A stretch of 64,000 bases of DNA from Candidatus Krumholzibacteriia bacterium. GTDB taxonomy: Bacteria; Krumholzibacteriota; Krumholzibacteriia; LZORAL124-64-63. The notes under the pieces are model-generated. The model ran no database searches. It was not told the DNA's origin and saw only the letters and a program-made list of their open reading frames with translations. A program made the position numbers and the translations under genes. Location: contig JANTFX010000002.1 in the NCBI GenBank assembly GCA_024763215.1, forward strand, positions 42,076 through 106,075, given 5' to 3'. Below are positions 23,785 through 42,164 of this stretch, one piece after another; position 1 is the first letter of the stretch; each line of letters starts with the position of its first letter.

Positions 23785-24213
23785 TCAGGGCCCAGCCGGG
23801 CTCCCGAGGTCCTGCGCGCCCTGCGCTGAAGGGCACGCATAAGCCAGCAGGGTGTCCAGCTTCCCGGCCAGTCGGGGCCCGATGCCCTTGATGCGGACCA
23901 GATCATCCGGACCGCCGAACACCAGGCCTTCGCGCCGGGCCGCCAGGATCCTGCCGGCCAGCACCGGGCCCACGCCCGGCAGCAGGACCAGGCTGTCCAG
24001 GGGGGCTGTGTTGATCGAGAGGGGGATGTTCAGGACGGGCTTCGCACCGGAGGCCGAAGGCGCACCGCCAGCGGCGGGCAGCTGCCCGGGCAGGTGTTCC
24101 AGTTCCGACCGCCAGCGGCCATCGGGACCGATCAACAAACGGTCCCTGAGCAGATGGCCGGCCAGCAGCAGGAAGCACATGAGCAGGAACCCGGCGCCCT
24201 GCCGCCAGGGCAA
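23785..24213 (-). CDS. ComEA-like helix-hairpin-helix protein with N-terminal TM
   Basis: LPWRQGAGFLLMCFLLLAGHLLRD then SINTAPLDSLVLLPGVGPVLAGRILAARREGLVFGGPDDLVRIKGIGPRLAGKL (two HhH); TTG start at 24213 inferred. Confidence 0.8.
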   Translation of the reverse strand: MPWRQGAGFLLMCFLLLAGHLLRDRLLIGPDGRWRSELEHLPGQLPAAGGAPSASGAKPVLNIPLSINTAPLDSLVLLPGVGPVLAGRILAARREGLVFGGPDDLVRIKGIGPRLAGKLDTLLAYACPSAQGAQDLGSPAGP

Positions 24214-24230
24214 CCGGGGTGTGCGGGGTG

Positions 24231-26957
24231 TCAGTGGAGGAAGTTCCAGGACAGGCGCATCACCGTTTCCCGGCCGGGCCCCCAGGCATTGCCCGTCAAC
24301 CGGTAACGCTCGCCGGTCAGGTTGCGCAGGGCCAGGGACAGATCCGCCCCCACCAGCCTGAAGCCCACCACCAGGTCCGTCAGGGTGCGGGCCGGGATCC
24401 CATAGCTCCCGGTCACGTCCCAGGGATCGCTCATGGCGCCCACATGGGTCCTGAACAGCGCCACCTCCAGGACGGCGTCCTCCGCGAACAGGTGATTCTC
24501 CCACATGACGGTCAACCGGGTGTAGGTGTCTGGAGGCATGAAGGCCGGCTGCAGTCCTGTCGATGAGAAATCCTGCCATGTCCCCTCGTAGCGGATCCGG
24601 CCCCACCCCAGGAATCGCCCCTGGTGGCCCACCGCGGCGGTCAGGCGCGTGTAGTCCATGGCCACGCCGTTGGCCAGGCGTCCGCTTTCCGACCCCGGCG
24701 CCGAGGGCACCCAGGTGATCCCGTCCTCCACGCTCCCCGAGACCCCCTCGGCGGCAAGATCCATGCCCACCAAACGTGAGGCCAGGCGCAGGCCCCAGCG
24801 GCGGGTCTTTTCCCGCTTCAGGCCGGAGTTGGGCTCCAGGATAAGTACCCGGTCGGCGACACCGTGGCGCAGGACCGTCCCCAACTCGTCACTGCGGGGA
24901 GCCCGGCCCCCTGCCTCGTAGTACAGCCCCCAGCGCACCGGACCGCCATGGCCCCGCAGCCGGGCCGAGGCCAGCTGGTCCCAGCCCAGCCGGTCGGTCC
25001 ACAGCCCTCCTGCACGGCCCGTCATCTGCAGCCCGAAGACGCGCAGGCCTGAACCAACGGTCACGACGGCCTGCTGCCCATCCATGTGCACGGGCCCGGC
25101 TTCATGACCGAGGCCCAGGGTGTCGGGCCCGGTATCATCCAGCGTCCAGTTCTCCACGGACATGGAAAGCTGCACCGGCAGCATGGATCCGCCGGACGTG
25201 TCCGGCCGTTCCACGCTTGTTCCGGGAACCGTGCTGTCGGCGGGGGCGGCCGCGGTGGAATCGGCAGAGGTGGATTCCAGGCTGTCGACGGAGGAAGCAG
25301 CGCTCGAATCGGCTGCAGCGGCTGCCTCCCCGCTGTCCGGCACCGCGGCGGTCAGCGAATCGTCCTCCACCCCGCTGACGGGCAGGTCCGCGGGTGCGGA
25401 GTTGGCCGCCACATTCCTGCGGCCCAGGGTCACCTCCAGCAACAACCCCTGGCGCCCGGTGGACAGCATCCGGGACGCGGTATCGGACCCGGCGGTGTAC
25501 TGGTCCATGCGGACATCCCGATTGCGCCAGAATACAGCCGTGCGGACACCCACCCGCCGGCTGCCCCCGTGCATGTCCACAGACACCCCGTCGGACCAGA
25601 CCTCCTGATGGTCCGCGTCCAGGGCGGGTACGAGATCCTTGGTCTTGCGGGCATAATCGTAATCGATGTCCAGGCGGGCCTGGTCCGTCAGGGTGCGGGA
25701 CAGGCGCACATGGCTCTGCCGGAGGCGGGCATGGCCGGGATAGTATTCGTCATCTGGAATGGGATCGAAGACCTCCCCCGGCAGGTCGCTGAAGTTGTAG
25801 CCTTCCTTGTCCAGGTTCTCCTGATACTCGAAACCAAGACGCCAAGGGGCCTGGGGAGTAAGAAGTTGCAGCTTCCGCCCGTAGGTCTCGTGACGCCCCT
25901 TGGTGCCCTCGTAGGAGGTGAACGCATCCTGCGGCGCCTGGTCGCGGCGGGCGAGTTGGATCCAGCCGCCGGTGCCCCCCCAGGGGTCCAGGCCAAAGGA
26001 CATGGTGTCGGGCCGCATGCCCGCCAGCGGCACCAGGCCCGGGTCATCGGCCAGCACGTGGCCGGTGCCCAGGGGCAGCCCCCGGCGCATCACCAGGGGG
26101 TAGGCGGCTGTGGAAAATTCCCCCAAAATCATGGCAGCCGAGCCAAGGCCCCCATCGGCTACGGGCACGAAATCACCATGCCAGGCGAGCAGGTCCAGCA
26201 GGGACGCCGAGAACGGGTGCCACAGCCCCCTTCGCCATTCGGGCGGGCCCTCGACCCGGGCAGGCGGAGCGGGCGCCTGGACCGCCACCGCAAGGGTGGA
26301 ATCGGCAGGGGCGCCGGCATCGGCCCGGACGCCCGGAGCCGCCAGGCACATCCAACCCAGCAGCACCAGGGGAGCCACCGATCCCACGCGGCCGACCAGC
26401 GGCTCCCGTCCCAGGTGCCGGAATCTTCCGGCCAGGGAAGGGAAAAGGGCGGCGAAGATGACCAGGTTGCTGCCGGTATGCAGCAGGTAGAACGGCACCG
26501 CCCCCGCCAGGACCACGGCCGGCTCCAGGTTGAAGCCCGCCATGACCCCCGCGGTGGTGACCGCCTCGTACCAGGTTGTGCCGATCAGGGCGAGAAACAA
26601 GGAGCCCAGGACCCGCCTGCCGAGGCCGGAGCCGGAAAGGGCGTTCCAGGAAGACCACAGGCCGCCGAGCAGGCCGAGGCCGGCCAAACCCGCCATCTGG
26701 GCCACGAGGATCCAGACCGCGGGGATACCGAAGGGAGAGCCGAGGGAGTAGATCCCGGCGGCAAGCGCACCGCACACGGCGCCCAGGCGGGCGCCCAGCA
26801 CCACGCCGGCGACCGCGACCACCAGGCTCATCAGTTCCACGTTGGGTATGCCCGCCAGCAGGAAGCCGGCACCAGCCGCGGTGCCGGCAAACAGACCCAG
26901 GAGCACCACGACACGGACCGCGACGTACCGTGCGGGCGCGTTTTCAGTCTTGTTCAT
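24231..26957 (-). CDS. Fusion: ECF S-component-like membrane domain + TonB-receptor-like outer-membrane beta-barrel
   Basis: N-term polytopic IPNVELMSLVVAVAGVVLGARLGAVCGALAAGIYSLGSPFG; internal signal-like VAPLVLLGWMCLAAPGVRA; C-term SLALRNLTGERYRLTGNAWGPGRETVMRLSWNFLH. Confidence 0.72.
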   Translation of the reverse strand: MNKTENAPARYVAVRVVVLLGLFAGTAAGAGFLLAGIPNVELMSLVVAVAGVVLGARLGAVCGALAAGIYSLGSPFGIPAVWILVAQMAGLAGLGLLGGLWSSWNALSGSGLGRRVLGSLFLALIGTTWYEAVTTAGVMAGFNLEPAVVLAGAVPFYLLHTGSNLVIFAALFPSLAGRFRHLGREPLVGRVGSVAPLVLLGWMCLAAPGVRADAGAPADSTLAVAVQAPAPPARVEGPPEWRRGLWHPFSASLLDLLAWHGDFVPVADGGLGSAAMILGEFSTAAYPLVMRRGLPLGTGHVLADDPGLVPLAGMRPDTMSFGLDPWGGTGGWIQLARRDQAPQDAFTSYEGTKGRHETYGRKLQLLTPQAPWRLGFEYQENLDKEGYNFSDLPGEVFDPIPDDEYYPGHARLRQSHVRLSRTLTDQARLDIDYDYARKTKDLVPALDADHQEVWSDGVSVDMHGGSRRVGVRTAVFWRNRDVRMDQYTAGSDTASRMLSTGRQGLLLEVTLGRRNVAANSAPADLPVSGVEDDSLTAAVPDSGEAAAAADSSAASSVDSLESTSADSTAAAPADSTVPGTSVERPDTSGGSMLPVQLSMSVENWTLDDTGPDTLGLGHEAGPVHMDGQQAVVTVGSGLRVFGLQMTGRAGGLWTDRLGWDQLASARLRGHGGPVRWGLYYEAGGRAPRSDELGTVLRHGVADRVLILEPNSGLKREKTRRWGLRLASRLVGMDLAAEGVSGSVEDGITWVPSAPGSESGRLANGVAMDYTRLTAAVGHQGRFLGWGRIRYEGTWQDFSSTGLQPAFMPPDTYTRLTVMWENHLFAEDAVLEVALFRTHVGAMSDPWDVTGSYGIPARTLTDLVVGFRLVGADLSLALRNLTGERYRLTGNAWGPGRETVMRLSWNFLH

Positions 26958-27051: not shown

Positions 27052-28623
27052 TTAACCCGTGGCCAGAGGCAAGGCGGCTTTCCGCGCGGCGACATCCATA
27101 TATCCGGGATCCTCGGCCAGGATCCTGTTATAGCAATCCGAGGCATCCTCGTTGCGGTCCGCCTTTTCATATAGCTTGGCCAGGTGGTAGAGCAATCCCA
27201 GGCGGCCATCCCGGGCCACCACTTCGGCCGCGGCGCCCTCTTCCAGGACCGTCATGGCTTCATCCTCACGATGGGATCGTTCGAGGGTCATGCACCACAT
27301 CTCATAGGCCCTGGCGGCATATTCGGGATCGGTCGTGGCGAGCTTGAAGCTAGCGGCCGCCTGGTCGGTCATGCCCATCTCCAGGTACACCAATCCCATC
27401 TCGTATTGCCGGTCGGCGGTATCGGCATCGCCGCCCACCTGCGAGCCGATCTCGGCGGTGATGGTCTCCAACTGCTCGACGGCGGCGCCCAGGAGGTCCT
27501 CGCCGTCCTCGGCCAGGATCTGGTCCAGGAGGTTGACGCTGTTGTCGGCGGTGCCGGAGGCCGCCTCGTCAGGCTGTGCCGCCTCCTCAGGCTGTGCCGC
27601 CTCGTCAGGCTGTGCCGCCTCGTCGCTATCGACTTCCCCCACGGCGGCGGCCAGGATATCATCCAGGTCCCCGGTGGCGCCGGTGTCGATGCTGATGCAC
27701 CCGTCCTCATCCTTCTCCTCGGCCAGCAGATCGTTGTTGTGTTTCACATCCGCCATGGCCGCGGTCTCCAGACCGGCAAAACTGGTTTCGTCCCCCCCGG
27801 CAGCCGGCGGATCTTCCGCTTCGGCGGCGGGCAGGACCTGAGCATCGGCCTCGTCGCGGGATGAAGCCGCGAGGTCAGGATCAACCTCCGGCTTGGGTCC
27901 TGTTTCCAGTGCAGAATCCGGGCCACCGAGATCGATGGCCCCGAAATCGGCAAAGGCCCCGGTGTCGGTTGCGGTCTGAGGATTGACCAGTTCGTTCCAG
28001 CGCATGTATTCCGGGTAATTCACCACGGAGGATTCGTTCGCTACGATGGCCTCGACCTCGGCGGCCGCCTCGGGATCATCGTTCTGGTGCTTCAGACAGC
28101 AATGCAGGACCCTGGCCCGCGCGGTTTCCAGGGGCATGTCCCACATCCGGAACAGCTGCACCAGCTTGTCCAGGATCTCCTCGTCGTCGTGATACAGGTC
28201 CATGAGGGTCACGCAACGCTTGGCGAACATGTCCTTGGGATCCCCGGCCAGCTCGCCGCTGGCGGACAAGAACGCCAGCGCATGCTCACGGCCTTCGGTC
28301 TTGAGCCCCTGCCCGGCCTTGGATTCGGCCAGGTACCAGTGGGCGTTCATGTTCCCCGGCTCGTGGCGCAGGATCTTCTTGTATATGGCCACCGCGTTGT
28401 TGACCAAACCGTTCTTGCGGTACAGGGAGGCTGCGGCCAGGAAATGCCGCACCGCCCGGGAGGGCTCACCCGCCTTCAGGCACATATCCCCCAGTTCATT
28501 GACCAGCGAGGGATTCTTCTTTTCGATCTCCAGAATCTGTTCGTATACGGAAATGGCCCGCTCCCAGTCCCGTTCCTTGCCCGCCTGGTAGGCATCCTGC
28601 TTGAGTTGGCTCAACTTGGACAA
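27052..28623 (-). CDS. Tetratricopeptide-repeat protein with acidic low-complexity middle
   Basis: WERAISVYEQILEIEKKNPSLVNELGDMCLKAGEPSRAVRHFLAAASLYRKNG... TPR units; PDEAAQPDEAAQPEEAAQ repeats. Confidence 0.85.
   Translation of the reverse strand: MSKLSQLKQDAYQAGKERDWERAISVYEQILEIEKKNPSLVNELGDMCLKAGEPSRAVRHFLAAASLYRKNGLVNNAVAIYKKILRHEPGNMNAHWYLAESKAGQGLKTEGREHALAFLSASGELAGDPKDMFAKRCVTLMDLYHDDEEILDKLVQLFRMWDMPLETARARVLHCCLKHQNDDPEAAAEVEAIVANESSVVNYPEYMRWNELVNPQTATDTGAFADFGAIDLGGPDSALETGPKPEVDPDLAASSRDEADAQVLPAAEAEDPPAAGGDETSFAGLETAAMADVKHNNDLLAEEKDEDGCISIDTGATGDLDDILAAAVGEVDSDEAAQPDEAAQPEEAAQPDEAASGTADNSVNLLDQILAEDGEDLLGAAVEQLETITAEIGSQVGGDADTADRQYEMGLVYLEMGMTDQAAASFKLATTDPEYAARAYEMWCMTLERSHREDEAMTVLEEGAAAEVVARDGRLGLLYHLAKLYEKADRNEDASDCYNRILAEDPGYMDVAARKAALPLATG
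27560..27627 (-). repeat. 18-bp in-frame tandem repeat (about 3.8 copies)
   Basis: gccgcctcgtcaggctgt / gccgcctcctcaggctgt / gccgcctcgtcaggctgt / gccgcctcgtcgct. Confidence 0.9.
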
Positions 28624-41265: not shown

Positions 41266-42164
41266 CGCGTCACCACACAGCGTGCGGCCGGGCGTGCCCA
41301 GACCGGCGCCACCTCCACCTGCACGTTCATGCCCAGGACCTGCGCGCCCGGTTCGTCATCCTGCTTGCCGGCACCCATCACCGCATCGACCACCGAGACG
41401 GCCCGGTTCACCACGGCGAAGAGGATCATGAAATCCCGCCGGTCGTAGGCGTTGCTCGCATCGGCCCGCAGCTGCCGGTAACCGTACAGACGGTCCATGT
41501 TCGCCCACTGCCAGGCATCCTGCGCATCGATCAGGCCGGACACCGGTTCCTGCAGCGCACGCGCCTCACGGTACCGGTCCTCGTTGTAGGAGTCGCTGTC
41601 CATGTAGCGGGCGACATTCTGCCAGTAATTATCATCGTGGCTGCCGCTGGTACCCGCGTAGATGCCGGCGAAGTCCCGGGCGTCGTCCATGCGGTTGTCG
41701 CCCTGGGTGTCGAAGATGAAGTAGGTGGCCCAGATGGCCACCTCGGCACCACACATGATGTAGGCCTTCTGGTGCCGCCCGTTGTAATACTGGCCCGCCC
41801 CCGGCAGCACCGCCGAGAGCAGCCCCGCCTTGAATTTTTCGCCCAGATGGGAAGGTCCCTGTTCCAGATCCCGTTCTTTTTTGATCCCCCCCCCGAACTC
41901 GTCGGGTTGGTCGTCAAAGCCCTGCCCGCCGATCTGCATCCAGGCCCCCGGCGCACCGCCGGAACCGTCATGGGCTTGCACCAGCTGCCGCCAATGGCTC
42001 GACCCGAACCACATCCGGACCCCGCCTGCGGGCCCGTCCTGTGCGGCGGCGCCCCCGGGGATCATCCCCACCGACAGCAGGGCCAGGGCACAGGTCAGGC
42101 CCAGCCTTGCGATACTTCCCCTGATCTTCAGATTCAATGCTCGCCTCCCGGTAGGCCTGGTCAT
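41256..42164 (-). CDS. DUF5683-like exported/membrane protein (paralog A)
   Basis: Signal peptide; FKAGLLSAVLPGAGQYYNGRHQKAYIMCGAEVAIWATYF; DRRDFMILFAVVNRAVSVVDAV. Confidence 0.6.
   Translation of the reverse strand: MTRPTGRRALNLKIRGSIARLGLTCALALLSVGMIPGGAAAQDGPAGGVRMWFGSSHWRQLVQAHDGSGGAPGAWMQIGGQGFDDQPDEFGGGIKKERDLEQGPSHLGEKFKAGLLSAVLPGAGQYYNGRHQKAYIMCGAEVAIWATYFIFDTQGDNRMDDARDFAGIYAGTSGSHDDNYWQNVARYMDSDSYNEDRYREARALQEPVSGLIDAQDAWQWANMDRLYGYRQLRADASNAYDRRDFMILFAVVNRAVSVVDAVMGAGKQDDEPGAQVLGMNVQVEVAPVWARPAARCVVTRWF

Follow-up and report, generated by a model that had tools for sequence, protein, structure and literature searches.

The nearest known precedent for the gene described here is the Bradyrhizobium cytochrome b/c1 precursor FbcH, which starts with a polytopic inner-membrane protein, continues through an internal signal peptide to a second protein, and is cut by signal peptidase. 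For the individual parts of this gene, the closest characterized proteins are BtuB, the TonB-dependent receptor for vitamin B12, with a signal peptide at its N-terminus and a full plug, and CbrT, the S component of the vitamin B12 ECF transporter of Lactobacillus delbrueckii (PDB 6FNP, chain A; PMC5997447). The gene lies in a window of 64,000 nucleotides from a Candidatus Krumholzibacteriia bacterium (positions 42,076 to 106,075 of contig JANTFX010000002.1) and joins an ECF-type S component to a TonB-dependent receptor in one reading frame. It resembles FbcH in that a polytopic protein leads, by way of a putative internal signal peptide, into another protein, but both products of FbcH stay in one inner-membrane complex, whereas the second product here would reach the outer membrane. 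CbrT is the only significant PDB sequence match of the S-domain profile (E 3e-7, nearly full length), and, as for CbrT, most genomes that carry the S half have no BtuC-type permease; however, the CbrT gene is free-standing in a host without an outer membrane, whereas the S half is fused to an outer-membrane receptor, and no EcfA was found here, in contrast to ECF-CbrT. The receptor half has BtuB as its best match by both sequence profile and fold and carries a possible counterpart of the TonB box close to where the mature protein is predicted to begin but, unlike BtuB, has a shortened plug and a putative signal peptide in an internal position. The S component and the receptor are each of a known kind, and the new element is the joined, internally signalled layout; neither an S-component/receptor fusion nor a bacterial polyprotein of an inner- and an outer-membrane protein was found in the literature searched, coverage of which was partial.

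The fusion gene occupies positions 24231-26957 on the reverse strand and is an uninterrupted frame encoding 908 aa, running from an ATG to the stop at 24231-24233, exactly the single open reading frame delimited in the initial annotation. An open frame alone is little proof of a gene in this region because GC-rich DNA yields many chance long ORFs, which are abundant around the fusion gene and include an antisense ORF of 635 aa. That this frame is the gene follows from its conservation as a single frame in 29 of 29 S-carrying genomes of its family, from the confident AlphaFold models of both halves and from the existence of the halves as separate proteins elsewhere; conservation at the protein level and the models rule out a chance ORF. 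A frameshift or an assembly error at the S-receptor junction, which the initial annotation had named as reasons to abandon its reading, is excluded by the presence of the same fusion in independent genomes. The window protein by itself gave no Pfam or NCBIfam match in single-sequence searches, and profiles built from its relatives were required.

The presence of the fusion was assessed within the phylum, in a comparison set of 82 genomes among which the window belongs to the family denoted f1; a scan of a genome-contig collection yielded only one close relative. The initial annotation had proposed looking for the same fusion in related genomes and for unfused adjacent homologs, and both were found. 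The S domain is in frame with the receptor in all 29 f1 genomes in which an S domain is detectable, the locus of G054 being cut by a contig end and left outside this tally. Complete fusions number 21, the remainder being cut by contig ends; the protein is about 830-970 aa long, or more in cases in which the open frame by chance extends beyond the start on its upstream side. In families f2, f3, f5, f6, f7 and f8, an S component of about 190 aa is encoded by a separate gene whose stop overlaps or adjoins the start of the receptor gene, commonly as ATGA or TTGA, and the unfused receptor of about 600 aa has its own N-terminal signal peptide. The overlapping genes are probably translationally coupled. 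Since the S component and the receptor are separate neighbors in these families, the f1 fusion is a join of two adjacent, probably co-translated genes. In the f1 genomes that lack the S domain, the receptor persists alone at the loci that were read.

Residues 1-183 (26409-26957, reverse strand) are an ECF transporter S component with six helices and CbrT-like sequence. The AlphaFold model of this domain, based, like the profile, on an alignment of 37 sequences, has a mean pLDDT of 93.5 and a pTM of 0.88, and its high-probability (about 1) fold matches are ECF S components, including FolT, RibU, ThiT, BioY and PanT, with TM-scores of about 0.45-0.65 and weak Foldseek E-values (best 0.035). PF12822 was matched by 36 of the 37 aligned members, with the window member by itself falling below the cut-off.

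Residues 213-908 are a TonB-dependent receptor that is closest to BtuB in both sequence and fold. A plug-like domain shortened on its N-terminal side (residues 240-340; 25938-26240, reverse strand) is recognizable from its alignment to the BtuB plug, from PF07715 and from the AlphaFold model, and is followed by a BtuB-like outer-membrane beta barrel (residues 341-908; 24234-25937, reverse strand). The profile of 33 receptors has BtuB as its top match, aligned to the BtuB plug with an E-value of 3e-12; the Plug family PF07715 was matched by 11 of the 33 (best 7e-16), and TIGR01779, the TonB-dependent vitamin B12 receptor model, is one of the two commonest NCBIfam matches among them. This kinship emerges from the profile and the family members, the window receptor alone giving no match. 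The full-length AlphaFold model comprises six helices, a disordered stretch (residues 185-242) with a short helix at 194-204, the plug-like domain and the barrel, and its best PDB match is BtuB (1nqg, E 5e-24). The two parts of the protein are as the initial annotation had described them, namely about 190 S-component-like codons at the start and, further on, a degenerate plug and a barrel. The barrel contains a long disordered insert rich in Ala, Asp, Ser and Thr (residues 514-590; 25188-25418) that varies in length among the relatives. TonB is encoded in all 39 f1 genomes, that of the window included; coupling of the receptor to TonB is not certain because the N-terminal portion normally seen in plugs is missing.

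The fusion protein is probably a processed polyprotein for the uptake of vitamin B12 (corrinoid) across both membranes, with an S component of the CbrT kind and a receptor of the BtuB kind as its products. The initial annotation had already read the ORF as an internally cleaved polyprotein for a two-membrane uptake route, and the analysis supports that reading. The fusion, its conservation, the identities of the two halves and the partner genes are observed, whereas cleavage, substrate and TonB use are what we infer. Under this model, residues 1-183 would insert into the inner membrane as a CbrT-like S component with the C-terminus inside, and the hydrophobic segment that follows would act as an internal signal peptide, with Sec threading the remaining chain into the periplasm. 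Signal peptidase would cut the chain after A212, leaving the hydrophobic segment on the S component as an additional C-terminal helix, and the freed C-terminal part would move to the outer membrane and fold there as a BtuB-like TonB-dependent receptor whose newly created N-terminus would lie close to the TonB-box-like motif. For transport, the S component would pair with some ATPase and with the EcfT of the asd-truA locus, and it would be synthesized with the receptor in a 1:1 ratio.

Across the class, asd and truA are separated by a CbiQ/EcfT gene, and the window's genome shares this arrangement; there, it is a divergent EcfT-like gene on contig C9 (L069:4218-4973). By profile search, this EcfT was detected in 46 of the 53 S-carrying genomes compared to none of the 28 S-less ones (Fisher p 1.5e-15, a value that ignores relatedness). 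Two S-carrying f1 genomes without EcfT also lack asd, so that the asd-truA region is missing from those assemblies, and the S-carrying family f3 (G003-G006) has no EcfT at this site, with only weak CbiQ matches in G003 and G004. Seven f1 genomes without the S domain have truA directly after asd and cleanly lack ecfT, which may reflect a single loss, given that these genomes cluster together in the Asd tree. None of the 82 genomes gave a match to ECF_ATPase_1 above the cut-off, and the ABC ATPases detected in the window's own genome (G000) were generic, without a clear EcfA candidate. A double ATPase ORF on G000:C30 was considered as EcfA and set aside, being located beside two permease genes and having, by eye, the look of an Opp/Dpp-type importer.

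The initial annotation had left the substrate open; the evidence points to B12. A strong FecCD/BtuC permease match is present in 4 of the 53 S-carrying genomes versus 23 of the 28 S-less ones (p 1.3e-11, again ignoring relatedness), the S-less state being found in at least three lineages (an f1 sub-clade, f4 and part of f5). On account of this distribution, the S domain with EcfT and the BtuC-type permease appear to replace each other, which is what one would predict for two importers of B12. Such an exchange of the inner-membrane importer has occurred naturally in the f1 sub-clade of G040, G047, G048, G057 and G070-G072 (L053-L060), in which the receptor alone is accompanied by a BtuC-type permease and both the S domain and EcfT are missing. 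G005 (f3) has both an S domain and a BtuC-type permease. The FecCD locus L122 (G068:C170), which counts among the four exceptions to the mutual exclusion, has a third-position GC content below that of the rest of the family and may be foreign or contaminating DNA.

It is unlikely that the polyprotein is processed as proposed but handles another substrate, such as haem, another tetrapyrrole, folate or a different cofactor. Such a substrate would be compatible with the S-component fold, which does not discriminate among ligands, with the matches of 11 of the 37 S-domain members to a folate-family S-component model (up to 1.7e-6) and with the fact that FecCD permeases also transport haem and siderophores; furthermore, neither a cobalamin riboswitch nor any other Rfam match was found in the window or in 17 related loci. 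Against these observations stands the finding that the best solved relatives of the two halves are, independently, B12 proteins. In addition, for the tested permeases that appear to take the place of the S domain, BtuC was the top-scoring identity or close to it, and the top one at most of the loci tested, one of which has a BtuF-like gene beside the permease. All 82 genomes lack the corrin-ring gene CbiC, and de novo synthesis of B12 therefore looks absent, yet the activation domain of the B12-dependent methionine synthase was matched, in some cases weakly, in 71 of the 82.

The processing step of the proposed polyprotein would take place at the junction. Here the initial annotation had placed a signal-peptide-like segment (about 26320-26410), and such a segment is indeed found at residues 184-212 (26322-26408, reverse strand), with a predicted cut after VRA at residue 212; counted from residue 183 (about 26322-26411), it reads GREPLVGRVGSVAPLVLLGWMCLAAPGVRA, with DAG following the cut. 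Signal-peptide features were scored by motif and hydrophobicity. In all 21 complete fusions, the last helix of the S domain is succeeded by basic residues, then by a hydrophobic core and finally by a site with Ala at position -1; in nearly all of them, the -3 residue is small or aliphatic, and the residue after the predicted cut is most often Gln. S components end in the cytoplasm, and the segment is therefore correctly oriented for a signal peptide. A TonB-box-like motif, DSTL within ADSTLAVAVQA (residues 219-222; 26292-26303, reverse strand), lies a few residues downstream of the predicted cut. In 14 of the 21 fusions, the pattern D-[ST]-[LMTVI] occurs no more than 12 residues from the predicted start of the mature receptor, compared to a mean of 0.8 in a composition-shuffled control, in which none of 2000 shuffles reached as many; in these related sequences, the motif is suggestive only.

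Were the chain left uncut, the S domain would anchor it in the inner membrane and the protein would span the periplasm to the barrel, an arrangement that could draw on the linker of 17-80 residues after the segment and on the disorder predicted for residues 185-242. We regard this as quite improbable: the Ala at -1 and the small or aliphatic residue at -3 are kept in nearly all members, the shortest linkers (17-23 residues) seem insufficient to cross the periplasm, and unfused relatives carry a normal N-terminal signal peptide at the same place. Internal re-initiation that produces two separate proteins from an incidentally joined frame, a scenario which the initial annotation had raised in the form of an internal GTG start and which recalls the overlapping, probably coupled genes of the other families, is very improbable, because, although GTG codons occur near the window's junction, no start codon is conserved there among the complete fusions and several have none shortly before the hydrophobic core, no well-placed ribosome site common to the members was found, and, with no stop codon between the halves in f1 members, a ribosome translating the S domain must continue into the receptor.

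It is quite likely that a single translated chain, through cleavage by signal peptidase, supplies both a transporter subunit for the inner membrane and the receptor that goes with it in the outer membrane. If true, the two products of this bacterial precursor would be destined for two different membranes. The tie between a BtuB-type receptor and an ECF-type importer suggests a B12 import route for Gram-negative bacteria without BtuCDF, and the S domain together with EcfT provides candidate markers by which B12 scavenging could be recognized in a phylum with few cultured members. The gene also offers a built-in test of whether membrane partners gain from joint synthesis.

The genes flanking the fusion are of other kinds. 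Upstream is a gene for a TPR protein (27052-28623, reverse strand). Listed at 23785-24606 on the reverse strand, with an uncertain true start, is the ORF of a ComEA-like helix-hairpin-helix protein (PF12836, PF00633) that is not part of the fusion. A role of the fusion in type IV pili or DNA uptake, for which the position next to the PilB, PilT and ComEA-like genes is the sole support, was not adopted. In many genomes (L033-L052), as in the window, PilB-PilT genes are located just downstream of the S-component and receptor genes.
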